DNA of 64,000 bases from Candidatus Nitrospira allomarina (GTDB lineage: Bacteria > Nitrospirota > Nitrospiria > Nitrospirales > UBA8639). The notes beneath the pieces are model-generated. The model ran no database searches and was not told the DNA's origin. It was given only the letters and a program-made list of their open reading frames with translations. This document shows, one piece after another, positions 3,017 through 15,899 of the stretch (within the stretch, counting starts at the first letter, position 1; each line of letters begins with the position of its first letter). The stretch covers positions 496,001 through 560,000 of the forward strand of contig NZ_CP116967.1 of assembly GCF_032050975.1 (NCBI RefSeq), read 5' to 3'. The translations under genes were made by a program, and so were the position numbers.

Positions 3017-4834
3017 ATGCCATTCATGGCAGCGAGGAATGCGTTGTTTGGTTCAAGGTTCCCTTCCCATTCTTCCGTCCAACGGATTATCCGGGTCGCT
3101 GATATTGGAAAAAAACTGCCTGTTTTCCTCATCCTATCTCTACATTTTTTTTCGGGAATAGGACAAAACAATCAACTCTTCGCACAGGTCCAGCCAGGCT
3201 TTGATCCCACCGGACGGTTCGGCGAACCCCCGCCTCTAGAGAAAAAAACCGAGCCTCTGACACCAAAGACTGCTCCCGATATCACACTGCCTCCAGTGGA
3301 AACCATTCCTGAAATGAAAGGGGCCCCTCCTCAAATTCGGGTTATGATCCGGAAGATTCGAGTTGAGGGGAGCACCGTCTTTTCAGCGGAAGAACTAGCC
3401 AAAGTCACAGCTCCTTACGAAAACAGGGAGTTGTCCACCAATGATCTGGAGGAACTGCGCCGGGCCTTAACGTTGCTCTATGTCAATAAAGGATATGTGA
3501 ACTCTGGGGCGGTAATCCCGGATCAAACCCTACAAGACGGAGTCGTCACCATTCAGATTATTGAGGGAAAACTGACGGACATCCAAATCGAAGGCACCAA
3601 ATATTTCCTCCCCTTTTATTTTGAAGACCGGATTGCCTTGAGCAGCGGACCACCGCTCAACATCAATCCGTTAAAAGAAAAGCTCCAACTCCTCCTTCAA
3701 GACCCCCGTACGGAACGGTTAAACACGGAGCTGAAACCAGGACTGAAACCAGGCGAAGGGGTCCTCCATGTGCAAGTCGAGGAAGCTTCCCCCTTCAATG
3801 CGTGGATAGAATTCAACAACTTTCAATCACCAACGGTTGGCGAGTCGCGGGGTCTCGGAAATATCGCTGTGCAGAACCCGTTCGGATTGGGGGATGCCTT
3901 TCGCTTTACCTATGGCCAATCCAAGGGATTGCAGCCTCTTATCGAAGCCAACTACATCATCCCGCTCACGGCACGAGATACCACCCTGGAACTGAATTTC
4001 CGGTTCAATGACTTTCACGTCGTCACAAAACCATTCGATGATCTGGACATCAGAACCAAGTCCCAAATATACAAAATCGCCTTGCGTCAACCCGTCTATC
4101 GCACACTCAATGACGAAATTGCCCTCTCCCTCATCGGAGAACACCTGGAAAATCAGAGTTTCCTGGGTGGAACGGGGTTCTCCTTCCAGCGCGGCGCAAC
4201 CAACAACGGCAAGGCTATCGTGTCAGCCCTCCGGTTCGGGCAGGAATGGATTCACAGGGAATCCAATCAAGTCCTCGCGGTTCGATCCCGGTTCAGTGTG
4301 GGATTAGACGTACTGGATGCCACCAACAATAAACAAACCTCTGATGATCCGGACGGGGAATTTTTTGTCTGGTTAGGCCAGGTCCAATATGTCCGACGCG
4401 TAGATCCTCTCGGCATCGAATTTCTCGGCGGCCTGACCTTGCAGATTGCCAACGACAGCTTATTCGCACTGGAACAATTTGCCGTCGGCGGCCGGTACAG
4501 CGTCCGGGGGTACTGGGAAAATTATCTGGTGCGGGATAATGCATTTCTGTTTAACGTAGAGTCACGAATCCCGATGTTTCCCAGCTTTTTTGGTCCGAAG
4601 GTGGCGGTGGCACTGGCTCCCTTCATAGATGTGGGACGGTCATGGGAGGCCAAACGCAATACGCCCGATCCGCAGACTCTGGCCAGTATTGGCACAGGAA
4701 TCCGATTCTCCTTCTTCAATCGGGCACATGCCAGTCTATATTGGGGGCAACAGTTGAATCACGTGGAGGATCCTCCTGGCGGAGGCGTTCAGGATCAGGG
4801 AGTGCATTGGGAATTTGTCCTGGATATTTTGTAG
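3017..4834 (+). CDS. TpsB-type outer-membrane transporter (ShlB/FhaC/HecB family)
   Basis: Predicted outer-membrane pore of a two-partner secretion system. The 605-residue product has a hydrophobic signal-like stretch near residues 30-55, a Pro-rich linker, then POTRA-type repeats from about residue 110 (IRKIRVEGSTVFSAEEL; YVNKGYVNSGAVIPDQ; GVVTIQIIEGKLTDIQIEG). A C-terminal ShlB-like beta-barrel ends near residue 605 in a WEFVLDIL strand. GGRYSVRGYWEN resembles the conserved VRGY/L6 loop of Omp85/TpsB proteins. A TpsA-type exoprotein gene lies about 7 kb downstream on the other strand and is the likely substrate. The exact start is uncertain because no good Shine-Dalgarno is visible. Confidence 0.9.
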   Translation: MPFMAARNALFGSRFPSHSSVQRIIRVADIGKKLPVFLILSLHFFSGIGQNNQLFAQVQPGFDPTGRFGEPPPLEKKTEPLTPKTAPDITLPPVETIPEMKGAPPQIRVMIRKIRVEGSTVFSAEELAKVTAPYENRELSTNDLEELRRALTLLYVNKGYVNSGAVIPDQTLQDGVVTIQIIEGKLTDIQIEGTKYFLPFYFEDRIALSSGPPLNINPLKEKLQLLLQDPRTERLNTELKPGLKPGEGVLHVQVEEASPFNAWIEFNNFQSPTVGESRGLGNIAVQNPFGLGDAFRFTYGQSKGLQPLIEANYIIPLTARDTTLELNFRFNDFHVVTKPFDDLDIRTKSQIYKIALRQPVYRTLNDEIALSLIGEHLENQSFLGGTGFSFQRGATNNGKAIVSALRFGQEWIHRESNQVLAVRSRFSVGLDVLDATNNKQTSDDPDGEFFVWLGQVQYVRRVDPLGIEFLGGLTLQIANDSLFALEQFAVGGRYSVRGYWENYLVRDNAFLFNVESRIPMFPSFFGPKVAVALAPFIDVGRSWEAKRNTPDPQTLASIGTGIRFSFFNRAHASLYWGQQLNHVEDPPGGGVQDQGVHWEFVLDIL

Positions 4835-4931
4835 CCCTTCTGAATAGAAAGGCGTTCACGAGGCAGCCGGTTGTTCGGATCAGCACCAGGCTTTTTCGTT
4901 CAATGAAAAAAAAGCGATAGATACCACGCTA

Positions 4932-5669
4932 TCAGCGGAAGGAAGTGATGACAGGGGACGCGAGTTGAATGCGTTGCAAATAAGGCGGGCGCTTCAAATA
5001 TCCAGTTGCTCGTTCCGAATCCGTTCCGGCGACCAGACGTAATCGCGCCAGACAACCCCGTTGAAAACGGTCCACAGCCAGGATAGAAAATATTCGTTCC
5101 GCGCGAAGGTTATCTTCCTGGCATCGTTCACTCCCGCTTTGACAGGAAAAAGGAGTTTGGCCAAAATTCACCGGATGAATTCGCCCGGAGGGAACCCCCA
5201 ACTGCACCAAGAACTCCGCAAGGGATCTTAGATGATAGTCGGCCCTGGCGAGGTTATAGGCAGACGGGCCTCGCGAATCACAATATCCTTCAATCCGTAA
5301 TCCCCACTGATCTTCCTGTTTCAGAAGCGCGACTGTTTCGTGGAGGAAATCTTCGACACCACCCTGAATGGAAGTCCGGACATCATCAAAGTACACGTCG
5401 GCAAAAACAGGGTCCTGGTACCTGTCTTCGACCGATCGCCCTAAACCCCGACCCTTCCCAAAAAACGGGGCCGGTATAGAGACCCTCAACGCATCATAAA
5501 TTTCTTCGTCCACGTCTACCTGAACACTCAAAAAGAGAGGAGCATTGTCCAGGGTATTCGCGAGTGATTCCTGAACAGACCATATCGTTCCCAACAGAAG
5601 GGACCATGCCAATAAACACCTGGGGATTCTATTCAGATGGAAGAGAAACATGGCAGCATGAACGAACAA
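4932..5669 (-). CDS. OmpA/MotB-like C-terminal domain protein, exported
   Basis: A roughly 245-residue protein with a hydrophobic N-terminal segment (LLAWSLLLGTIWSV) and a C-terminal OmpA-like domain, recognised from LRIEGYCDSRGPSAYNLARA, which corresponds to the peptidoglycan-binding helix region, and from a later NLRAERIF segment. Such domains usually tether envelope proteins to peptidoglycan. The region between (PVFADVYFDDVRTSI) resembles the start of the OmpA fold. The first codon used here is TTG, with GGAGG about 13 bases upstream. An ATG six codons later (5651) is an alternative. It is convergent with the TpsB gene and is probably part of the same envelope cassette. Confidence 0.75.
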   Translation of the reverse strand: MFVHAAMFLFHLNRIPRCLLAWSLLLGTIWSVQESLANTLDNAPLFLSVQVDVDEEIYDALRVSIPAPFFGKGRGLGRSVEDRYQDPVFADVYFDDVRTSIQGGVEDFLHETVALLKQEDQWGLRIEGYCDSRGPSAYNLARADYHLRSLAEFLVQLGVPSGRIHPVNFGQTPFSCQSGSERCQEDNLRAERIFSILAVDRFQRGCLARLRLVAGTDSERATGYLKRPPYLQRIQLASPVITSFR

Positions 5670-5910
5670 GAACCCGTTTGAGACCTCCTCGAGAAAACGC
5701 CTCAGGATTGGGGTGGTTTGGGCTATAACCCTTTGAAGTCCGTATCGGCCCGACAGAATGAAACTTAATTCGGATGAAAGAAGCGAGGTATCGCCATTCA
5801 GTGCTAGCTCAACATGGAAAATCCGGAGCTAAAATGAGGTGTGAGGTCCAGCCTGAGGAGTGCGTGAACTGTTGTCGGATAACAGTCGAGCGGGAAACAA
5901 CGGACGGAAA

Positions 5911-5951
5911 TAAAAAAAAACCTGCCCCCGCCACAACGGCGGGGACAGGTT
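5911..5951 (-). terminator. Rho-independent terminator
   Basis: A 14-bp stem (5919-5932 with 5938-5951, one mismatch) with loop ACAAC is followed, on the minus strand, by a run of T (the A run at 5912-5920). It lies about 190 bases beyond the stop of the DUF928 gene and should end that transcript. Confidence 0.85.
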
Positions 5952-6137
5952 CCATAACTGCGGGTGCAATGAAAAGGGGAAAATGAACCTGCTCCCCTAG
6001 GACAAAAAGCGCAGGTTCAATAACACACGGGCATCACGGACTGGGGGAAATTTCCGGTCCTGGCAACACCCGCCCAGACAAGACCTTCGTGGACTTGCCC
6101 ATCCACACCTCCAATTCCCATTTTCAAACAGCCACAG

Positions 6138-6989
6138 TCATAATCCATGCTCGCGATCAACCTGCGCCGGCGTATCCAAATCAACCTCTTCAAGCAATGA
6201 CGCCCGCACATGATGCATCTCGGCATCGGAAGGATGAGACTGAATATAAGTGGAAATCACGCCTATGGCGTCATACCAAAATCCGGCTTGTCCCCATAGC
6301 TTCGTCGCTTCAACCGGATTGGCGTTCTTCAAATCCTCGGTCAGCGAGGCCGGGACCTCACCCACCTTAATCATTCCTCCGCCGATAATATCCGCTGATC
6401 GATGCTCGGGATCAGAGACCAGAGACACAAACCATTGATAGGTTTTCCCTTTTTCCAGTTTCAGATCGTAATCAGCCAAATGAATAATGTGAATCCCGGA
6501 TTCAATGGGAGAGGAAAGCGGCTTCTCAATAATCGGGGTCACCCCTAATTCGTCAATAAGGGTAAATTCCAAAGGGTAGTTTGTCGCCTTTGATAAATAC
6601 CACACCAATTGTGGCTGCACCTCACTCGCCAATCCCACGTGATCCGGAGCCAGGGCCAAGAGTAACGGAAGATCCGTCATAGGACCTCTGGTGCCTCCAC
6701 CAACCCGTCCTCCCGGAGCCCCTCGTTGTGGAGGTTGGTACAACGCTCCCTCCCGTGATGAAGCCGCCTGCTTGTCAGTTTTGTCATCCGATATTTGGAC
6801 AACCGGACTGTCACCAGAAAGGAGTGTCTCCTCCAAAAACCCTGGTTCAATGGCTATAGACGCGACGTCCTTCATATGAGTGTGGGTTGCCTGATCTGGG
6901 AATTCCGCTCCTCCCGTGGCCTGAACACTAAGACCAAGGGTCACGGCTATTACCGCCACCCACCTGCATCGTGTCATCATCTGGCTCAT
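6138..6989 (-). CDS. DUF928 domain exported protein
   Basis: About 283 residues, with a signal peptide (MMTRCRWVAVIAVTLGLSVQ). The mature part carries the DUF928 signature: a Gly/Pro-rich lead (PPQRGAPGGRVGGGTRGP), ALAPDHVGLASEVQPQLVWYL, and KGKTYQWFVSLVSD. DUF928 has no proven function. From family knowledge it is common in cyanobacteria, where it occurs near CHAT, ShlB-like and haemagglutination-domain proteins, matching the neighbours here. The start at 6989 is chosen over an upstream ATG at 7037 because AGAGGAGG lies seven bases before it and the signal peptide follows directly. It diverges from the CHAT gene and ends at a strong terminator. Confidence 0.85.
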   Translation of the reverse strand: MSQMMTRCRWVAVIAVTLGLSVQATGGAEFPDQATHTHMKDVASIAIEPGFLEETLLSGDSPVVQISDDKTDKQAASSREGALYQPPQRGAPGGRVGGGTRGPMTDLPLLLALAPDHVGLASEVQPQLVWYLSKATNYPLEFTLIDELGVTPIIEKPLSSPIESGIHIIHLADYDLKLEKGKTYQWFVSLVSDPEHRSADIIGGGMIKVGEVPASLTEDLKNANPVEATKLWGQAGFWYDAIGVISTYIQSHPSDAEMHHVRASLLEEVDLDTPAQVDREHGL

Positions 6990-7219
6990 TATGGTCCTCC
7001 TCTCTTCGTCCGGACCGTCCTCCCGGTACATTTTCACGGAAGACGTTCTCGGATCTGCTCACACCTGGAATACAGATATTTAAAAGGCAAGCTTCGTTCC
7101 ACAACCCAAATTTTCCCCACTTGGAGACAATCATTTCGAACCACGCGCTATTGCTATAGATTTCATGCATACCCTCTCTCACATGGTCTTTCCGTCTAAA
7201 GGTGTTTGGATATCTCACC

Positions 7220-7248
7220 TGTCTACTTGGTGTATTGTGTGTCTACTT
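7220..7248. promoter_or_regulatory. Direct repeat TGTCTACTT in divergent promoter region
   Basis: The nonamer TGTCTACTT occurs at 7220-7228 and again at 7240-7248, exactly 20 bases apart, between the divergent DUF928 and CHAT genes. Direct repeats two helical turns apart are typical of response-regulator or LytTR-type sites. The binding protein is unknown. The rest of 6990-7464 shows nothing clear. Confidence 0.35.
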
Positions 7249-7464
7249 TGAGAACAATTTCAAGAGAAAGGGGTTCACCCTCACAAGCTGACGACCGTAG
7301 ACCTTCATAAGAAAAACTCGCTTTCCTCTTCCAGATTCACAATCGGATCCAGGAGAACCCTCAACCCCCCCCCCGTTTCGGAAACCCTTGCTTTGACCTT
7401 ATTGACGGCAATTCCTAGAATGGGACTGTTGAATGCATAGATGACTTCAGAGAAAGGGTCGGCA

Positions 7465-9789
7465 ATGTCCCGAACTCGCGGGTTTCCCAACTTTTCTCGT
7501 TATGGTCTTGGAGTGTGGTTCTTCCTTCTGGGAGTCGGCGGGATAGGGATGACGAGTACCGTTGCGGCGGAACTGTCCTCTCAAGATTTGTTAGCGGAAG
7601 GAACCCGGCAGTATCAGCAGGGCCAGTTGGAACAGGCAGCCCGGTCCTGGACTCAAGCCGCCCAGATCTATGAAAAGTCCGGAGATCATCCCAATCACAT
7701 TCAAGCGCTCATTTATCTCTCGAGAGCCCTGCTCGATTTGGGCCAATACCAACGGGCCCAACAACTCCTTCGCACAGCCGTCCAATCAGCACAGGAGACC
7801 ACCCAGCTCCGCCTGATGGCCCAGGCCCTCAGCCAATTGGGAACCCTGCATCTCAATGTGGGAGAGTTGGATTCGGCACTTGAGATCCTGCAACAGGGGC
7901 TGAAGGTCTCCAGGGAAATCGAAGATCGACCGCTCATGGCTACCATCCTCAATGATCTGGGCAATGCACATGCGGTTCGCCGGAACGAGACAGAAGCCCT
8001 TGCGGCTTATACAGAATCCAGCATTCTTGCTGATTCACTAGATTTGCAACCTCTTTCCATTCGAGCCATGATTAATGCGGCCCTGGTGGAAATCAGGCAG
8101 CAGTCCGCACAAAATGGGAAAATCCATTTGCAACAGGCATTGGAGAAAACACGAACACTTCCTGACTCACACGAAAAAATCCAAAACCTGCTCACCATCG
8201 GAATGGGATTGAGAGACCTCAGCCATCAGCTCACAGAGGAGCATGCCACGGTATTCACCCAAGCCGCTGAGTCCTTTCGGGAAGCCATAGGCAGCGCGAA
8301 AGCAATTGGAGACTGGAAAAATGAATCATATGGGTGGGGATTTTTAGGAGAATTGTACGAAGAAGGGGGCCGCCATGAGGAAGCCCTCCAACTCACGCAA
8401 CTGGCGATTCGGACGAGTCAAAAGGGCCAGGCCCCGGAAGCCCTCTATCGCTGGGAATGGAACACGGGCCGGCACCTCAAAAATCTGGGTCGGACGGACG
8501 AGGCCATTGCAGCCTACCAGCGAGCGATCGATACACTCCAACCCATTCGTCAGCAACTGTCTGTCGGGCTCCCCCAGAACCCGGCATCGTTTCGAGATTC
8601 GCTGGGAGCCTTATTTTTTGAAACCGCTGCTCTCTTACTCCAGCAAGCTGATGAAGTGACAGATGCCACAAGAAAAGAAGGGCTCCTGTTCCACACCCGG
8701 GATACCATTGAAGCATTCAAGGCCGCAGAGCTCCAGGATTACTTCAAAGACGATTGCGTGGAAGCGAACAGGGGGAGAATCCAAGCCATCGATAAAGTAT
8801 CCGATACCACGGCGATTATTTATCCCATTCTCTTCCCTGACCGGATGGCCCTCCTGATAAGCCTTGGAGGAACAATGAAAAAAATCACCGTTCCGGTTCA
8901 AAAACGTGACCTGACAGAAAAAATTCACCTGTTCCGGACCCTATTGGAAAAACGGACCACTCATCAATATTTACCCCATGCGCAGGCCCTGTATGACCTG
9001 CTTATCCGGCCGCTTGAACCGTATCTGAGTGAATTCGGGATCCAAACGCTCGTCTTCGTCCCGGATGGACCATTGCGAACCATTCCCATGGGACCCCTCC
9101 ATGACGGAGAAAAATTCCTCATTCAAAAATATGCCATCGCGACGACTCCGGGATTGACGCTCACCGATGCCCATCCCCTGAACCGGGAGCAGGTCAATCT
9201 GTTGTCGATTGGACTGTCCGAAGGCGTTCAGGGATTTTCACCCCTCCCCAATACACAACAGGAGGTGAGGGAACTTCAAGATCTCTTTGGCGGAAAGACT
9301 CTCTTAAACGAAGAATTCCGCATTCCCAATCTTGAACAGGATATGAAAGAGGAAAACTTTACGATTATTCATATCGCCTCACATGGAAAATTTGCGAAGG
9401 AGCCCGAGAATTCTTTCATCCTCACGTATGACAAAAAACTGAGCATGGATCATCTCCGAGAACTTATCGGGTTATTTCAATTCCGCAAGGTCCCCCTGGA
9501 TCTCTTAACATTGAGCGCCTGTGAAACGGCAGCCGGAGACGATCAGTCCGCTTTGGGACTGGCCGGAGTAGCCGTGAAAGCGGGGGCGCGAAGCGCCTTG
9601 GCCACCTTATGGTTTATCAATGACCAGGCATCCTCAATCCTGATTAATGAGTTTTACATCCGGCTCAAAGAATCTTCGCTTTCCAAAGCCCAGGCCCTTC
9701 GTGAAGCCCAAACGGGCCTTCTCGCTCATCCCATCTATCGGCATCCCAGTTATTGGGCACCGTTTCTCCTGATCAACAACTGGCTCTAG
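7465..9789 (+). CDS. Exported TPR-CHAT domain protein (caspase-like peptidase)
   Basis: A protein of about 774 residues with a signal peptide (LGVWFFLLGVGGIGMTSTVAA), TPR repeats from about residue 30 to 370 (QYQQGQLEQAARSWTQAAQIY; AQALSQLGTLHLNVGEL; TDEAIAAYQRAIDTL), and a C-terminal CHAT domain from about 450 to the end. The caspase-type dyad is visible: His640 in HIASHGKF and Cys686 in LSACETAAGD, followed by the conserved LGLAGVAVKAGARSALATLW. CHAT proteins are cysteine peptidases of the separase/caspase clan, and TPRs bind partners. Export would place the peptidase outside the cytoplasm, with the TpsA exoprotein as a candidate partner. The start at 7465 is preferred (AAAGGG upstream); ATG 7441 is an alternative. 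Confidence 0.9.
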   Translation: MSRTRGFPNFSRYGLGVWFFLLGVGGIGMTSTVAAELSSQDLLAEGTRQYQQGQLEQAARSWTQAAQIYEKSGDHPNHIQALIYLSRALLDLGQYQRAQQLLRTAVQSAQETTQLRLMAQALSQLGTLHLNVGELDSALEILQQGLKVSREIEDRPLMATILNDLGNAHAVRRNETEALAAYTESSILADSLDLQPLSIRAMINAALVEIRQQSAQNGKIHLQQALEKTRTLPDSHEKIQNLLTIGMGLRDLSHQLTEEHATVFTQAAESFREAIGSAKAIGDWKNESYGWGFLGELYEEGGRHEEALQLTQLAIRTSQKGQAPEALYRWEWNTGRHLKNLGRTDEAIAAYQRAIDTLQPIRQQLSVGLPQNPASFRDSLGALFFETAALLLQQADEVTDATRKEGLLFHTRDTIEAFKAAELQDYFKDDCVEANRGRIQAIDKVSDTTAIIYPILFPDRMALLISLGGTMKKITVPVQKRDLTEKIHLFRTLLEKRTTHQYLPHAQALYDLLIRPLEPYLSEFGIQTLVFVPDGPLRTIPMGPLHDGEKFLIQKYAIATTPGLTLTDAHPLNREQVNLLSIGLSEGVQGFSPLPNTQQEVRELQDLFGGKTLLNEEFRIPNLEQDMKEENFTIIHIASHGKFAKEPENSFILTYDKKLSMDHLRELIGLFQFRKVPLDLLTLSACETAAGDDQSALGLAGVAVKAGARSALATLWFINDQASSILINEFYIRLKESSLSKAQALREAQTGLLAHPIYRHPSYWAPFLLINNWL

Positions 9790-10178
9790 TTTTTCATCTC
9801 CAAGACTGATCTCTGGACGGGGCAAGTCGTTTCTTTGGCTTTGCGTCGAAAGCCGCCTTTCTCAAAAATCACGCCGTCACAACCAGCCCTCATTGCCAGA
9901 TCCTGCTTCGACCCGTTCCGATACACGCGCTATCTTCCGCTCCTGTCCGCTTTAACGCCTAGATTCCCTTCCCGGTCACCTCTGGCGGTTCCCATATTCC
10001 GGTCAAGCCAAACTGCTGACTTATGGAGCCTTAATGAGGACAGCCGTTAACAAGGTGACTACGCCGTGACCACTTAGACAAACACGATTGAATAGGAAAC
10101 CCCTAATTTTCGTGGGATTATTGGCTCGCAAGTTATTCATTTTAAACATGAATTTCTCGCCACAATGAAATGATCTGC
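9790..10178. other. Non-coding gap after the CHAT gene
   Basis: No convincing gene, terminator or repeat was seen here. Short open frames lack start signals and family features. Confidence 0.4.
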
Positions 10179-10191
10179 AAACGGCACCATG

Positions 10192-10212
10192 GTTGCTTTA
10201 ATAAGAAGTAAC
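10192..10212 (+). promoter_or_regulatory. Conserved leader hairpin, copy 1
   Basis: GTTGCTT pairs with AAGTAAC (one G-U) around a seven-base loop. The hairpin sits in a 34-base element (10179-10212) that recurs, about 85% identical, at 10934-10967. In both cases the element starts 93-94 bases before the ATG of a 35-residue micro-protein, which points to a shared 5' leader or promoter element. Confidence 0.5.
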
Positions 10213-10272
10213 AACATCAATGAAACAGCAACACTGAGGAGACTTTCCTCTCAGTTGGAAGAGGTTTCTATC

Positions 10273-10380
10273 ATGCAACTTTACGAGCTTTACCAAAACA
10301 TCGTCATCGGAACATCGATAACATGTGTAATCGGTCTGGCGGTTGCATGGGTCTTTTTCCTATCAAATCGAGGCAAATAA
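10273..10380 (+). CDS. 35-residue single-pass membrane micro-protein, copy 1
   Basis: Small protein starting MQLYELYQ, with one hydrophobic helix (IVIGTSITCVIGLAVAWVFF) and a short basic tail (SNRGK). I do not recognise the family. A paralogue of the same length lies about 750 bases downstream (start 11027), and conservation between the two begins at this ATG. That supports this start over an in-frame upstream ATG at 10189. GAGG lies nine bases before the ATG. The duplication and the shared leader are the main evidence that it is a real gene. Small helices of this size are often accessory subunits of membrane complexes, but nothing here shows a partner. Confidence 0.65.
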   Translation: MQLYELYQNIVIGTSITCVIGLAVAWVFFLSNRGK

Positions 10381-10933
10381 CAAGGAAAAACGTCGATTTC
10401 ACCCTTCAGCCATTCAATGTACAAGCCATAATCCGTTGGGCCCTCATCAAATTGTCGTTCTGAGTAAAACGAAGAATTTGTGCCTTGGCCATCCGGACTT
10501 TGGTCTAGCCAAATGTTTCCCGCAGCTCAGCATGATAACTCCGTTGAGGCTGTCTCCCCCACGATCTTCTGGTCATCCTAAGACGTTCAATGAACCCCAT
10601 CAGGATTCATCTGTTCACAAAAATGAGCGCTGCAGAATGTAGAACCCTATATTCTGTATGATCACGATCATCTCCGTCCTCCTCCGTCATCACCTTCGGC
10701 CTGTCGGTGGAACCATCCGTATGCTAAAGAGCTCCTGATACAAGCGTTTCGCACCTTTCGCGACGCATTCTTTTCCTTCGCTCAATCAGAGAGGAACGGA
10801 AGTTGACAGAATGACAACCTTTTATTGAGGGAAAAAAATAGGATTAAATGCCGATTTCGCGGTTTGTATGGCTATTTCTTTCATAAACCACTGGATTCAT
10901 TCATGACATCCGTACAGCATGGCTCTCGCGCCA
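10381..10933. other. Spacer between the two micro-protein genes
   Basis: No gene was recognised. Its right end, next to the second leader element, is part of the duplicated unit. Otherwise nothing clear is visible. Confidence 0.35.
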
Positions 10934-10946
10934 AAACGGCATCACG

Positions 10947-10967
10947 GTTGCTTTAAAGAGAAGTAAC
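10947..10967 (+). promoter_or_regulatory. Conserved leader hairpin, copy 2
   Basis: Same 7-bp GTTGCTT/AAGTAAC stem as copy 1, with a changed loop (TAAAGAG instead of TAATAAG). Stem conserved with loop varied is what an RNA-level constraint would give. Confidence 0.5.
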
Positions 10968-11026
10968 CAGAACGATCATCAGAAAATCAATTTGAGACTC
11001 CTTCTAACGGTTATTCGGTTTCTATC

Positions 11027-11134
11027 ATGCAAATCTATGAGCTTTATCAACTTATCTCCCTCGGAATCTCGATAAGCTGCGTGATCGGACTGGCAGTCGC
11101 ATGGGTGTTATTTCTGTGGAATCCGAACGAATGA
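11027..11134 (+). CDS. 35-residue single-pass membrane micro-protein, copy 2
   Basis: Paralogue of the 10273-10380 gene: starts MQIYELYQ, has the hydrophobic helix ISLGISISCVIGLAVAWVLF and ends LWNPNE. About 60% of residues match copy 1, highest in CVIGLAVAWV, and the length is identical. The bases before the start (GGTTTCTATC) are also the same as copy 1. Function is unknown. It is too short for ordinary gene finders and is supported by paralogy and the shared leader hairpin. Confidence 0.65.
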   Translation: MQIYELYQLISLGISISCVIGLAVAWVLFLWNPNE

Positions 11135-11233
11135 CAATGGTCTGCATGACAACTTTCTCCTCTTTCCCTCACTCCCTTCCCTCTTCGTCATCCCCGCCGG
11201 TCCTTAGCGAAATCCATACGACCCGAACCAAGA

Positions 11234-11477
11234 GGGGGCTGTTGAAAAAAGCCGCCAGCGGCGTTCTCGCCATTTTCCCGTGCTCACGTGCTGGAAGTAC
11301 GCTCTGCGCGCAAAACAAAAGTGGTGCCCTTCGGGACACGGCAGGAATTTGCGGCCTTGCTGGACGAACCCTTCGAAAGGCTCAGGGCATGCTTTTTGGA
11401 ACCGCCCCGAGGTCTCTGATATCCAACGTGCCTGTGGATCAATATGCCTTTGGAAATTAGTATTATTCAACATCCCC
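11234..11477. repeat. Candidate dispersed repeat with terminal inverted ends
   Basis: The left end GGGGGCTGTTGAA and right end TTCAACATCCCC are imperfect inverted copies of each other. In between, no reading frame looks real. The left end (GGGCTGTTGAAAAA followed by GCCGCCAGCGGCGTTCTCGC) resembles a non-coding element I have seen repeated in Nitrospira genomes, from memory only. It could be a MITE-like element. Only one copy is in this window. Confidence 0.45.
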
Positions 11478-11484
11478 AAGAGAG

Positions 11485-11509
11485 ATGTCCGGCAACAACT
11501 GCCGGACAT
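11485..11509. other. Perfect 10-bp hairpin without T tract
   Basis: ATGTCCGGCA and TGCCGGACAT pair perfectly around the loop ACAAC, about 120 bases beyond the stop of the TpsA gene. No T run follows on either strand, so termination is possible but not shown. Confidence 0.5.
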
Positions 11510-11630
11510 GACAAGGTTTAAGAATCATGGCTGTGCAAAAACACCCAGGACGATGTCGGGAAATTCTTTAGAAATTAATTCAGACGAGTGGAGTTAAACA
11601 GGAGGGAAATTCTGAAGTCCCACATAGAAT

Positions 11631-14600
11631 TCAAGGACAGGCCGAAAGCATTCCATCTTCATGCTGAAACAGCACGGGAGGAGAATAGGCGGCCAACTGG
11701 ATAGAGGGAGTTGAATCTTGGCCAGAATCCACGGAGCGCGTACCGGTATCACCCAACGCGCCCGCAGGGTATGGACTCACTTGGGGGAGAAACGGGCTGG
11801 CTAAGAATGTGCCGGGCGTGGGGGCCACACTGTCGGACTTGGAATCCACAAAGGTACTAAAGTGGCCGCCCTCTCCCGCCACACAGCGAGCCGCATAGAG
11901 CGTGGCCACATTCACCGGCTGATCAGGCAGCGGCACGATCGTGCCGCTGAGGACTTGAATGGGCGACTCAATATTTACCGTGCCACTGATCCCCCTTTCA
12001 GAGGTGACCTCCAGTGTACTCTGCGCATCCACCAACACACCCTTGCTCGCGATTAACGTAATATTTCCACCCTGACCGTCAACGGCCTTAGCCAAAATAT
12101 GGCTATTCTGAAGAATGATGAAATCCGGATCTAACTCGATATTACCCGCCACGGTCCTGGCATCCCCCTTGACCGTGCTTTCAATGGTACTGTCAACCAG
12201 TTGAATCGTGTCGTTGGCGGTGAGCTTGATCTCGCCGCCTGAAGCTTGGGTCGCCTCTGTGGTCACGGTGGCCTTGTCGATCAGAATCGTGTCATGGCCG
12301 GTAATATCAATATTTCCGGCATCGCCCTGACCGCTGCTACTCGCCGAGACCCTGGCTCCATTACTCAGAGTGAAATTCTGGTTAGCCACCAACGATATGG
12401 TGCCACCAGCCCCCGCGCCGGGATCCGTCCCGGTGGTCCCGCTGAAGATGCCGCTACGAGTTTGGCCATCGCTGCTCACCCCGGAGATCGTCGTATTGTC
12501 GGTCAGAGTATTAATGGTTCCACCAGCGCCCTGGGCTGACGTGCTGGCCTCAATCCTCCCCCCCGAGGTGATGGTGAGCTGCTTTGCTGTTAACGTGGTG
12601 CTCCCTGCCGACCCAGTGCCCTGAGCATCGGTGAAAATTCCAGAACCCGCACCATCGATGACGATCGAATCGGCAGCACTGGCCAACCCTTGGATACTGA
12701 CCGTTCCTCCCGCGCCAGAAGGAATGATTGGAATTTGGGGTATTGTATTGATCGTGCTGCTGCTTCTCAGTTGACCACCATCCGTCACCTGAAGATTGTT
12801 CGTCAAAATATTCAGTATACCGGCATCACCGGAATCCACGGTTTCAGTGGATAAAAAACTGTTGCCTGTGATGAGAATATCAGAAGCCGTGATGTTCAAA
12901 TCAGAGGAACGGGCCGACCCCCGAGTAGTTGTCTGAACGCGAGAGAGAATGGGTATACTTCCGCCATCAGGCAGATTGATGCTGCCACTACTCAAAATTA
13001 AGCTCCCGGAGAGGTCCAGTTTTATGGCCCCTGGCACAACCGAAAAAATATTATCGATTGCGATGCGAGCCCCACGCATAATTAGGTTGTTCGCTGTAAG
13101 TTGAATCCCGCCATTGCCTTCAATTCCTTCCGTCCCTTGAATGAAGGTAAAAACGTCCGCTGGAGGTCCAGTCATCACGATATTGCCTTGAGACGCATTT
13201 ACATCAATGGATCCCACGATTCCCCCGCCAAACGATTGCGAAGAAACCAATGAACCCGATATGGAGATATTGCCCGCCGTGCTCGTCAGTTCGATATTTC
13301 CCGCGTTTCCTAAGCCAGCCGACGAAGGTGAGGCGGAAAATGAACCGGAAAATCCACCGATAGAACTACCCAGGAGGTCAAGATTTCCAGAGGTTCTGAC
13401 ACTAATACTGCCCGAGTTGCCTTCACCCGATGTATTGGCTTGGATCTGGACATCGCTGCCGGCTCTAAAATCATTCATTAGGAAGGAATTCGCTTCCAAC
13501 AGAATATCTCCGCTTGGTCCTCCTCTACTACCATCCGCGACATTCGACCGAATACCTGTAAAGGGCGGCGGATCGGGAGGATTAAGGGGATCGAAAGGCT
13601 CAGAAGGATCAGGAGGAACAAAGTCCTGGGGTCCCAAAATTTCTATGCGGTCAGCCTTCACATGGATACCACCAGATCCAATCCCCGGAGCAGCGTTTTC
13701 AGACACGTTCGTTTGGAGACTGGCCCCGTTCTGGATCACGACATCTCGGCTCACTTGGATATCAATGCCTTCTCCAGGCTGGCCAACCGACGGGCCCGCG
13801 GTGGGACCGATGATATTGGCAGAGATAGTGGAATTGTCCACCACAAGACGGCCGCCTCGAATTACCACGGTGCCGCCGCCCTTACCGCTGGCATTGATGA
13901 CAGATTTCTCCGAAATGTGAATCGTGCCCATCGCCTCAAAGGATTGCCCATTAACATTGGGGGCCTGAGCCAACGTTTCCGACAGAATTTCCCCAGGGGA
14001 ACCGACGCTGGCCAGATGAATCCGGCCATCTGGCGCTTTAAGGCCGCTGCCAATTGTTATGTCTCCTCCAACTAGTGAAAGAGTTTGTCCTTCCACGACT
14101 GATAATGTGCTCCCATTTACCGAAACCGTTCCTGGATTGTTACCCAAAAATCCAAATGCGGTTACCGGAGCTACACTCAACAGAGCATCCTGGGCACCGG
14201 GTAGGGCAGTAAATTGCACATCGTCGGTAAGCCGCAAATAGTCAGCCGTGGTGAAATGGGAGGCTCCACCCACATTCAAGGAAGCATTCGGCCCAAAGAC
14301 AATTCCGGCCGGATTCATAAGAAAGAAGTTGGCCTTCCCAAACCCCTCGGTCTGAATTGCCCCAAGAATGTTAGAAGTATTACCGCCGGTGACCCGGCTC
14401 AGAATGTTGGAGGTAGGAAGTCCCGAATCGTTCAGGAAGTTGGCAATATTGTTGGCAGGAACACCAAACTCTCCGAAGCTATGAAATAGGTTTCCACCAC
14501 CTCCCGGTCTGGTTCCACCGGTGATATTGTGCTGGACGGCTCCTCCTGGAAGGTCCACCGGAACACTCACCTGTGTATTGAGTCCTGATGACGTGATAGG

Positions 14601-14708
14601 GGGAGCAAGTTGAGCTTGACCGACTGTAGAGAAGGAGCGGCAGACAAGATATGCGGTCAGGAGCGGAAGCACGACATATCTCATGCGACCTGAGCAATTA
14701 GCGTACAT
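11631..14708 (-). CDS. TpsA-type exoprotein with filamentous haemagglutinin N-terminal domain
   Basis: A 1025-residue predicted secreted beta-helix protein. After a signal peptide (residues about 9-32) comes the haemagglutination/TPS domain with NLFHSFGEF (73-81) and FFLMNPAGIVFGPNASLNVG (128-147), the segment TpsB recognises in known systems. The rest is a repetitive Gly/Ser/Asn-rich beta-helix with recurring GGTI, GNI and ITSGGRIEAS-type rungs. Near the C-terminus, ARCVAGEGGHFSTFVDSK resembles the Cys-containing end common in cyanobacterial TpsA proteins. The likely exporter is encoded at 3017-4834 rather than next door. An ATG nine codons in is an alternative start. Adhesin or structural roles are typical; the target is unknown. 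Confidence 0.9.
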   Translation of the reverse strand: MYANCSGRMRYVVLPLLTAYLVCRSFSTVGQAQLAPPITSSGLNTQVSVPVDLPGGAVQHNITGGTRPGGGGNLFHSFGEFGVPANNIANFLNDSGLPTSNILSRVTGGNTSNILGAIQTEGFGKANFFLMNPAGIVFGPNASLNVGGASHFTTADYLRLTDDVQFTALPGAQDALLSVAPVTAFGFLGNNPGTVSVNGSTLSVVEGQTLSLVGGDITIGSGLKAPDGRIHLASVGSPGEILSETLAQAPNVNGQSFEAMGTIHISEKSVINASGKGGGTVVIRGGRLVVDNSTISANIIGPTAGPSVGQPGEGIDIQVSRDVVIQNGASLQTNVSENAAPGIGSGGIHVKADRIEILGPQDFVPPDPSEPFDPLNPPDPPPFTGIRSNVADGSRGGPSGDILLEANSFLMNDFRAGSDVQIQANTSGEGNSGSISVRTSGNLDLLGSSIGGFSGSFSASPSSAGLGNAGNIELTSTAGNISISGSLVSSQSFGGGIVGSIDVNASQGNIVMTGPPADVFTFIQGTEGIEGNGGIQLTANNLIMRGARIAIDNIFSVVPGAIKLDLSGSLILSSGSINLPDGGSIPILSRVQTTTRGSARSSDLNITASDILITGNSFLSTETVDSGDAGILNILTNNLQVTDGGQLRSSSTINTIPQIPIIPSGAGGTVSIQGLASAADSIVIDGAGSGIFTDAQGTGSAGSTTLTAKQLTITSGGRIEASTSAQGAGGTINTLTDNTTISGVSSDGQTRSGIFSGTTGTDPGAGAGGTISLVANQNFTLSNGARVSASSSGQGDAGNIDITGHDTILIDKATVTTEATQASGGEIKLTANDTIQLVDSTIESTVKGDARTVAGNIELDPDFIILQNSHILAKAVDGQGGNITLIASKGVLVDAQSTLEVTSERGISGTVNIESPIQVLSGTIVPLPDQPVNVATLYAARCVAGEGGHFSTFVDSKSDSVAPTPGTFLASPFLPQVSPYPAGALGDTGTRSVDSGQDSTPSIQLAAYSPPVLFQHEDGMLSACP

Positions 14709-14896: not shown

Positions 14897-15349
14897 TTAG
14901 TCCGTTAACGCAAAGGCAATGTTATTTTGCAAATAATTGTCTTCCATCGCAGAGCACCCAAATCTCAGATCTTTCCCGATATTCCCCAGCAGCTTCAGAG
15001 CAATGACCTCGCGTCCATTTTTTCGACGAATGTCTGAGAGAACTCTCTCAGTATAGGAAGTTAGCATAGATTCCGGAACTCCCTTTATGTTTAAAACCGT
15101 TTCGGAATCTCTGCCTGAAGGCTCTAGCTTAACGGTTTTCACATCGGCATTAGGAACAGGCGCTACGCAGTTCATACAATGATTTGTACCAGGACAATGG
15201 CAATCGGTGCGATATATGCACCAACTTTGGCTTCCACAACCACAGCAATACTTATAGGCATAGACCTCCCCGGAGAGGATTACGAGTTGGCAACTCAGAA
15301 GCAGGCAGAATAGAAATAATTTCTGAACGAATATCCCCTTGTACATCAC
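14897..15349 (-). CDS. Exported Cys-rich protein of unknown function
   Basis: A 150-residue protein with a signal peptide (LFLFCLLLSCQLVILSGEVYA) followed at once by a dense cysteine cluster: YCCGCGSQSWC, then DCHCPGTNHCMNC, about ten Cys with two His. A non-cysteine domain of about 95 residues follows (VLNIKGVPESMLTSYTERVL). The cluster could bind metal or form disulfides; I do not recognise a family. It follows the lipoprotein gene after about 55 bases and is probably co-transcribed with it. Both may be driven from the region with the GTATC palindromes upstream. Confidence 0.75.
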   Translation of the reverse strand: MMYKGIFVQKLFLFCLLLSCQLVILSGEVYAYKYCCGCGSQSWCIYRTDCHCPGTNHCMNCVAPVPNADVKTVKLEPSGRDSETVLNIKGVPESMLTSYTERVLSDIRRKNGREVIALKLLGNIGKDLRFGCSAMEDNYLQNNIAFALTD

Positions 15350-15404: not shown

Positions 15405-15899
15405 TTATGGCGTAGCCTGCTTGCGAAGCTCGGCCAAATGTTTCTTCAATTCTTCTTCACTATTTAATACTCGATCTAGCAAAACATAGTAGTCTTTGGA
15501 GCTTTTACTTGGCGGGGCAACCAAAAGAAGAATTGCACCTTGCTTTACCTCGTCTTTGTCTTTTTCCCTTATTGGAAAATAGTTTGGGACTCGCCTGGCA
15601 TAATCCTTATAGCTAACAATTTGTCCCATCATTTCCAACTCATCCTGCCTATCATCCAGCACAGCCTGGGGAAGTAGCCCTTTTAAATAGAGTTTTCCAT
15701 CTATTTCCACCGTTTCAACATCTTCCAACGCGTACCTACAAAACCCACTTGGCGGGTCGACAGGAGAACGCGGACATGAGTGTTGATACACCACCCTGCC
15801 GTCTCCATCTTGCCCAACCACAGGGTGTCCTTGTAATGAACTACATCCAGCCATAAGCATGAAGATTGATAAGAGAAAAAGAAATTTGGTAATGCGCAT
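15405..15899 (-). CDS. Lipoprotein of unknown function
   Basis: A 164-residue protein with a signal peptide and lipobox (FMLMAGC, lipidation at about Cys19). The mature part has Cys pairs in HSCPRSPVDPPSGFCRYALED and a charged C-terminal helix (DRVLNSEEELKKHLAELRKQ). No known domain was recognised. AGGAGAGG lies six bases before the start. It is the first gene of a likely two-gene unit with the Cys-rich exported protein. Its upstream region holds a sigma-54-like promoter candidate and two tandem palindromes. Confidence 0.75.
   Translation of the reverse strand: MRITKFLFLLSIFMLMAGCSSLQGHPVVGQDGDGRVVYQHSCPRSPVDPPSGFCRYALEDVETVEIDGKLYLKGLLPQAVLDDRQDELEMMGQIVSYKDYARRVPNYFPIREKDKDEVKQGAILLLVAPPSKSSKDYYVLLDRVLNSEEELKKHLAELRKQATP

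Follow-up and report, generated by a model that had tools for sequence, protein, structure and literature searches.

In two-partner secretion (TPS), the C-terminus of the exoprotein TpsA is the last part to pass through the outer-membrane transporter TpsB, and in HMW1, HxuA and CdrA it stays in the pore or the periplasm by means of a disulfide hook (PMC5422565, PMC3983070, PMC7616799). The tail of CdrA is cut by LapG, a periplasmic cysteine protease, which leads to release (PMC4694147, PMC11898600), and the C-terminal part of FhaB is trimmed by periplasmic DegP and CtpA (PMC8263021). Genes for such maturation proteases are, according to a review, apparently not located within TPS operons (PMC5422565), whereas the locus described here has a putative one built in, together with a conserved TpsA tail that marks likely substrates in two phyla. 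The locus lies at 3017-14708 of a 64,000-nucleotide stretch of Candidatus Nitrospira allomarina (contig NZ_CP116967.1 of GCF_032050975.1, positions 496,001-560,000; hereafter the window, to which coordinates are relative unless another locus is named) and encodes TpsB, an OmpA-like protein, a DUF928 protein, a TPR-CHAT protein and TpsA. We lean, by a small measure, towards the view that the TPR-CHAT protein acts in the periplasm, where it would bind and cut the TpsA tail and thereby release or mature the exoprotein. The CHAT and TPS parts belong to known families, and their combination, the tail and its co-occurrence with CHAT appear to be undescribed. No paper in the open literature (subscription journals being mostly uncovered) was found to connect CHAT with TPS or filamentous hemagglutinin or to show such a cleavage, and DUF928 was named in one only.

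A two-cysteine tail on TpsA

Alignment of the TpsA ends of these loci revealed a conserved C-terminal tail that has no model in Pfam or NCBIfam. Its general pattern is one cysteine, then S-[ST]-F-x3-G-R-[DG]-x-[LI]-P-x2-P, then a second cysteine near the C-terminus, in most tails a few residues from the end. The consensus is approximately R-C-A-A-x(3-5)-G-x2-S-[ST]-[FL]-x3-G-R-D-x-L-P-x2-P-G-x2-L-x-S-P in the window's phylum and C-x(6-13)-[SN]-x-F-x2-T-G-R-G-G-[LI]-P-x2-P in cyanobacteria. The first-cysteine column holds cysteine in all 98 tails of the phylum and in 99% of the 74 cyanobacterial tails. Exactly two tail cysteines are present in 88/93 tagged TpsA of the phylum and 63/65 of the cyanobacteria (151/158 together), and 87 of the 158 (48 and 39, respectively) have no cysteine outside the tail in the mature protein. 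The window TpsA has Cys942 and Cys1024 and no further cysteine after its signal peptide. The two hook cysteines lie about 80 residues apart with the conserved motif between them. A fixed scissile arginine in the motif is not supported: this residue varies between tails, and the sites at which Craspase enzymes cut are themselves not conserved (PMC11106740).

In the AlphaFold model of the C-terminal part of the window TpsA, the beta-helix scores mostly above 90 up to about residue 921, and the predicted local distance difference test (pLDDT) score falls below 50 for residues 922-1025 (256-359 of the model); such low confidence is expected of a flexible tail, and the shallow alignment behind the model, of 20 sequences, could itself depress it. 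A profile trained without the window's family still matches the window TpsA (22.8 bits, E=2e-5), and a whole-genome search with a profile that includes the window's tail finds it at E=1e-16. With a purely cyanobacterial profile, only 26 of the 93 tagged TpsA of the phylum were matched at E<0.01, and the window's was not among them. Judged from these searches, the tails of the two phyla look homologous but divergent.

Co-occurrence of the tail with a CHAT subfamily

The tail is present on 77 of the 80 complete TpsA in stretches with a CHAT gene, compared with 16 of 30 elsewhere. The three tail-less exceptions comprise two degenerate tails and one broken frame; the 16 tagged TpsA outside CHAT stretches are all in genomes that have the linked CHAT, and the untagged TpsA of the same genomes do not adjoin CHAT. 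A tail-only profile (A2) run on whole genomes provided a test unbiased by the choice of loci. Among 246 genomes of the window's phylum (DUF928 in 54, TPS in 85, CHAT in 95), the tail was found in 53, always in TpsA frames or apparent TpsA fragments, besides three weak and short matches that look spurious. In each of the 53, a CHAT is linked to TPS or DUF928: the TPS genomes divide into 53 with tail and CHAT, none with the tail only, two with CHAT only and 30 with neither, and all 40 genomes whose CHATs are exclusively of other kinds lack the tail. Among 117 cyanobacterial genomes, the tail occurs in 27 (E at most 1e-4), all belonging to the 31 in which a TPR-CHAT of this class was matched over its full length (E at most 1e-155; the remaining CHATs align over the CHAT part only and score no more than 312 bits), which gives 27 genomes with both, none with the tail only, four with CHAT only and 86 with neither, and the tail is in none of the 11 with only other CHATs. 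In G349, one of the four apparent CHAT-only exceptions, a tail can be recognised next to the CHAT. All 80 tail genomes of the two phyla thus have this CHAT subfamily; Fisher tests gave p values of about 6e-21 (phylum) and 1e-22 (cyanobacteria), figures that overstate the association because genomes are not independent. In the large genus g6, neither the tail nor a linked CHAT is present in four genomes with TPS (G110, G117, G218 and G237), a pattern that speaks for the two being gained or lost together. The tail is also on 67 of 70 complete TPS frames that adjoin such CHATs in cyanobacteria, and 12 cyanobacterial genomes have 12-48 tail matches each, usually outnumbering the CHATs, so that one CHAT probably serves many TpsA in trans.

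Locus architecture

A set of 140 genomic stretches was retrieved. The usual arrangement is an operon TpsA-TpsB-CHAT-[CHASE2]-DUF928, in which the CHASE2 gene product combines CHASE2 with an adenylate/guanylate cyclase domain (Guanylate_cyc). In 40 of 65 loci, the gene right after TpsB is a CHAT gene of the same orientation, and in 33 of these no more than 100 nt separate the two. A second locus type, TpsB-TpsA-CHAT with a TpsA of about 430 amino acids, has neither DUF928 nor CHASE2; because of these short-TpsA loci, the minimal conserved set is TpsA, TpsB and CHAT. The window's order, TpsB/OmpA/DUF928/CHAT/TpsA on mixed strands, is atypical and common only to its genus (L037, L038, L277), and the window locus has no CHASE2-cyclase. 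A hydrophobic N-terminus is present in 62 of the 63 DUF928 proteins of the phylum.

An earlier note on this DNA had described the five genes as one cassette, likened it to cyanobacterial gene sets and proposed a survey of co-occurrence. Open reading frames and Pfam matches confirm the five genes, and the same set recurs in cyanobacteria, for example on the Pseudanabaena plasmid ABRG53f, where ShlB, CHASE2, TpsA, CHAT and DUF928 are consecutive. Co-occurrence goes far beyond chance: of 151 listed CHAT cases, 70 have a TPS domain no more than 10 kb away, where uniform placement would give about 1.5, and 64 of 74 DUF928 cases have CHAT at a distance of up to 5 kb, where about 0.4 would be expected. 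The OmpA-like gene did not hold its place. It is present in the window but lies outside the core and is accessory at best, the usual extra partner being the CHASE2-adenylate cyclase; OmpA profile matches were seen in 5 of the 101 stretches examined first and in one further locus of the genus, with homologues in L037, L038, L047, L077 and L277.

Some TpsA and CHASE2 genes depart from these forms. The window's own genome has a second TpsA split over two overlapping frames with the tail in the second (L103 2405-6557, C1:3214404-3218556), and similar breaks occur in L038, L047 and L075. No repeat tract was present at the breaks checked (L103 and L038), which suggests decay or assembly error and no obvious phase variation. 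In many cyanobacterial cassettes (L207 20202-22361, L211 13662-16256 and others), the CHASE2 protein has an N-terminal CHAT-like domain ahead of CHASE2; in nine such proteins inspected, this domain showed none of the usual dyad motifs.

The CHAT subfamily and its natural fusions

In a maximum-likelihood tree, the linked CHATs of both phyla and the fusions described below split from the unlinked CHATs of the window's phylum with a branch support of 93/96. The dyad is intact in 51/51 CHATs of DUF928 loci; in the window protein, it comprises H648 in IASHG and C694 in LSACET. The AlphaFold model of the window protein shows a TPR superhelix and a caspase-like CHAT (pLDDT 84), and its best matches among solved structures are the TPR-CHAT protein Csx29 of Craspase and then separase, which are both site-specific proteases; the window protein is a predicted protease of the CHAT family (PF12770). 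None of the cassette proteins has a Pfam match to any protease family other than CHAT. The window pair has the domain make-up of a type Vb system, with a signal peptide and an N-terminal TPS domain in TpsA and POTRA and barrel domains in TpsB, and the window TpsB would be the exporter of the window TpsA. The earlier note had given weight to a signal peptide and an intact dyad in the CHAT protein. Both are there, the former as a signal-peptide-like N-terminus that ends between VAA and EL. Nevertheless, the signal peptide was rejected as a mark that singles out the linked CHAT: hydrophobic N-termini occur in 64/68 linked and 79/85 cyanobacterial CHATs, and also in 18/23 unlinked CHATs of the phylum.

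The CHATs of L068 (6057-8531), L076 (6062-8533) and L088 (5973-8462), all of the short-TpsA type, lack the catalytic His or Cys and are possible pseudo-enzymes. The window's own genome encodes two further CHAT proteins outside the TPS class, of about 2640 (C1:218526) and 1855 (C1:440356) amino acids, the former carrying a hydrophobic segment at its N-terminus as well as repeats of the PD40 (WD40-like) and TPR types.

Three natural TpsA-CHAT fusions were found. The G231 fusion (L035, in the window's genus) is a protein of 1358 amino acids that runs from signal peptide and TPS domain to CHAT without TPR or tail, and its gene overlaps the TpsB gene by four bases. Those of the Acaryochloris plasmid pREC3 (L178, 1756 amino acids) and of G386 (L269, 1626 amino acids, with TpsB upstream) both read signal peptide-TPS-beta-helix-tail motif-TPR-CHAT. 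The L035 and L178 fusions fall in different parts of the tree, which implies at least two independent fusion events. In each fusion, the tail and TPR are either both present or both absent, and the second cysteine is missing where CHAT occupies the end; as far as three cases, which are few, can tell, this fits a TPR that recognises the tail and a hook that would be needless once CHAT is fused. The pREC3 fusion has as neighbours two toxin-activating lysine acyltransferases and an RTX-like protein that binds calcium (L178 12509-18330).

Proposed mechanism and alternatives

We propose that TpsA would exit through TpsB with its N-terminus first and that its beta-helix would fold outside. The flexible tail would stay in the periplasm, looped by a disulfide between its two cysteines, and plug TpsB in the manner of the cysteine hooks of HMW1 and CdrA. 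The TPR-CHAT protein, exported by Sec, would dock on this tail via its TPR superhelix, and the His648/Cys694 dyad would then cut the tail, so that the exoprotein is released or matured. Where present, CHASE2-cyclase and DUF928 probably sense or gate this step from the envelope. The sequences themselves show the genes of the set, their export signals, the intact dyad, the fold, the tail with its pair of cysteines, the exclusive co-occurrence and the fusions. The disulfide, the docking, the cut and its site, and the release are steps that we infer. The link between protease and TpsA, which the earlier note had offered as a conjecture, is now much better supported, by the operon, the exclusive co-occurrence of the tail at the genome level, the three fusions and the dedicated CHAT clade.

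Several observations weigh against this mechanism. The co-occurrence ignores shared ancestry, and TpsA, TpsB and CHAT could be inherited jointly with the tail serving TpsB alone. The motif arginine is present in 86-91% of tails overall and is shifted or lost in the window's own family. The two-cysteine arrangement is incomplete in the fusions and in the degenerate-tail genomes G099 and G134. Finally, the His or Cys of the dyad is lost in 3 of the 16 CHATs of TPS-only loci, each of these genomes keeping an intact copy.

The first alternative is that the tail is a TpsB anchor only, as in HMW1, and that CHAT belongs with DUF928 and CHASE2-cyclase to a module for envelope stress or signalling, which accompanies the TpsA-TpsB lineage and cleaves something other than TpsA, for example CHASE2 or DUF928. 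Two tail cysteines would suit an anchor that needs no protease, CHASE2-cyclase and DUF928 are frequent partners, and some cyanobacterial loci have CHAT, DUF928 and CHASE2 without TPS. However, the minimal set consists of TpsA, TpsB and CHAT, with short-TpsA loci that do without the two other partners; moreover, the tail has a conserved linear motif besides its cysteines, CHAT is fused to TpsA itself in nature, and untagged TpsA of the same genomes stand apart from CHAT. We regard this reading as unlikely, if worth keeping in view. A quite improbable alternative is a sortase-like transpeptidase activity of CHAT, by which the tail would be cut and TpsA joined to a surface molecule, and so anchored instead of released. 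The presence of one tail on many substrates of a genome recalls sorting tags, and type IX secretion offers a known case of C-terminal domains processed in a sortase-like way (PMC4560394), but neither an acceptor gene nor a transpeptidase signature was found, and both relatives whose activity is known, Craspase and separase, act as endopeptidases. That CHAT is itself the cargo, an effector carried out by TpsA against neighbouring cells or matrix, is suggested by its place as the C-terminal part of TpsA in the fusions and has little to commend it otherwise, given that CHAT in its common form carries a signal peptide of its own and lacks a TPS domain, that no immunity-like gene was recognised and that two of the three fusions retain the tail motif between TpsA and CHAT.

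Beyond the cutting of the tail by CHAT at a single locus, a general C-terminal sorting system can be envisaged, in which exported TPR-CHAT proteins recognise the two-cysteine GR[D/G]xLPxxP tail on TpsA that may number dozens in a genome, govern their release or surface anchoring and are controlled by the envelope CHASE2-adenylate cyclase; this wider claim is tentative, and we put it at somewhat under an even chance. If tail cutting by CHAT is true, DUF928 and a large subfamily of exported CHAT proteins would gain a function, the TpsA under CHAT control could be predicted among the many present, and a periplasmic branch would be added to the TPR-CHAT/separase lineage of proteases. The choice between release and surface retention of the exoprotein would also become testable through a single Cys-to-Ala change.

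Features of the window and neighbouring genes

Table 1. Cassette features in the window, in window-relative positions.
Feature	Position	Strand	Basis or remark
TpsB outer-membrane transporter, 605 aa (amino acids)	3017..4834	+	Pfam: POTRA_2 85 bits, ShlB barrel 107 bits
OmpA-like exported protein, 245 aa	4932..5669	-	Pfam 27.3 bits, barely above the cut-off of 27.2
DUF928 protein, exported, 299 aa	6138..7037	-	Pfam 112 bits; ATG at 6989 a possible alternative start
Exported TPR-CHAT protein, 782 aa	7441..9789	+	Pfam CHAT 195 bits (194.8)
TPR-CHAT layout			Signal peptide about 1-43; TPR superhelix up to 435; CHAT 457-780
Catalytic His648 codon of CHAT	9382..9384	+	Conserved across all 51 DUF928-locus CHATs
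Catalytic Cys694 codon of CHAT	9520..9522	+	Conserved across all 51 DUF928-locus CHATs
TpsA exoprotein, 1025 aa: signal peptide, TPS domain (residues 59-281), beta-helix	11631..14708	-	Pfam PF05860 138 bits (137.7); NCBIfam TIGR01901
TpsA C-terminal tail, residues 922-1025, low-confidence, probably disordered	11631..11945	-	AlphaFold
Conserved tail motif, TpsA residues 935-975, RCVAGEGGHFSTFVDSKSDSVAPTPGTFLASP	11784..11906	-	Profile searches
First hook cysteine, TpsA Cys942	11883..11885	-	Column conservation in tail alignment
Second hook cysteine, TpsA Cys1024 (penultimate residue)	11637..11639	-	Sole other Cys of the mature protein

Upstream of TpsA, a small exported Cys-rich protein (CCGC...C...C.C.G...C) is encoded at 14897-15349 on the minus strand; similar proteins lie upstream of TpsA in L052, L065 and L102, and the tail disulfide is a possible target of the window's protein. 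Small lipoprotein-like genes (...GC[ET]..V.V..) stand in rows upstream of TpsA in L049 (2061-4107), L036 (10498-12619) and L037 (606-2944), a pattern seen in many loci, and the window gene at 15405-15899 (minus strand) may be one of them. Two paralogous ORFs (open reading frames) of 35 amino acids, at 10274-10381 and 11027-11134 on the plus strand, sit inside a direct repeat with 754-bp spacing and each encode one hydrophobic, probably transmembrane segment (MQ[LI]YELYQ...CVIGLAVAWV). They occur in four of the five examined genomes of the window's genus and nowhere else among 58 searched genomes of the order. As they are confined to the genus and not part of the cassette elsewhere, they were rejected as a system component.

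Comparison with known systems

Type IX secretion resembles the present system in a conserved C-terminal tag on many exported proteins and in processing by a cysteine protease. The PorU-type cysteine protease of type IX secretion has a caspase-like fold. The two differ in that type IX uses another export pore, a folded C-terminal domain and a C25 (gingipain-like) peptidase, in place of the TpsB, the low-confidence, unfolded-looking tail and the CHAT described here. Csx29 of Craspase, which cuts one partner protein, is the closest solved fold over the whole length, with TPR, CHAT and a Cys-His dyad. However, Csx29 is cytoplasmic and RNA-activated by Cas7-11, whereas the TPR-CHAT of the present loci is an exported protein associated with TpsA-TpsB; no Cas7-11 is among the five cassette genes, and no genome-wide search for it was made.

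Among TPS systems, FhaB of Bordetella, with DegP, CtpA and SphB1, likewise has a periplasmic C-terminal part trimmed by periplasmic proteases (PMC8263021), but its proteases are general or separately encoded and its prodomain is large, while the predicted protease here is in the operon. In HMW1, the end of TpsA has two cysteines whose disulfide anchors it in HMW1B (PMC3983070), as we infer for the tail here; its hook cysteines are 10 residues apart within the last 20 residues, in contrast to the wider spacing with the motif inside seen here, and that account describes no protease partner for the C-terminus. The CdrA-CdrB/LapG system of Pseudomonas aeruginosa has a TpsA with a C-terminal cysteine hook in TpsB, a periplasmic cysteine protease that cuts near the C-terminus, and control by nucleotide signalling at the inner membrane (PMC5422565, PMC4694147, PMC11898600). 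The two-cysteine tail has its counterpart here (88/93 and 63/65 tagged TpsA), with a predicted disulfide. However, LapG is transglutaminase-like, whereas here a TPR-CHAT protein is encoded in the TPS operon and the tail motif is different; likewise, LapD binds cyclic di-GMP, whereas the frequent membrane partner here is a CHASE2-adenylate cyclase. If the general sorting system is true, it would represent a second, independently built solution to the problem solved by LapG and CdrA.

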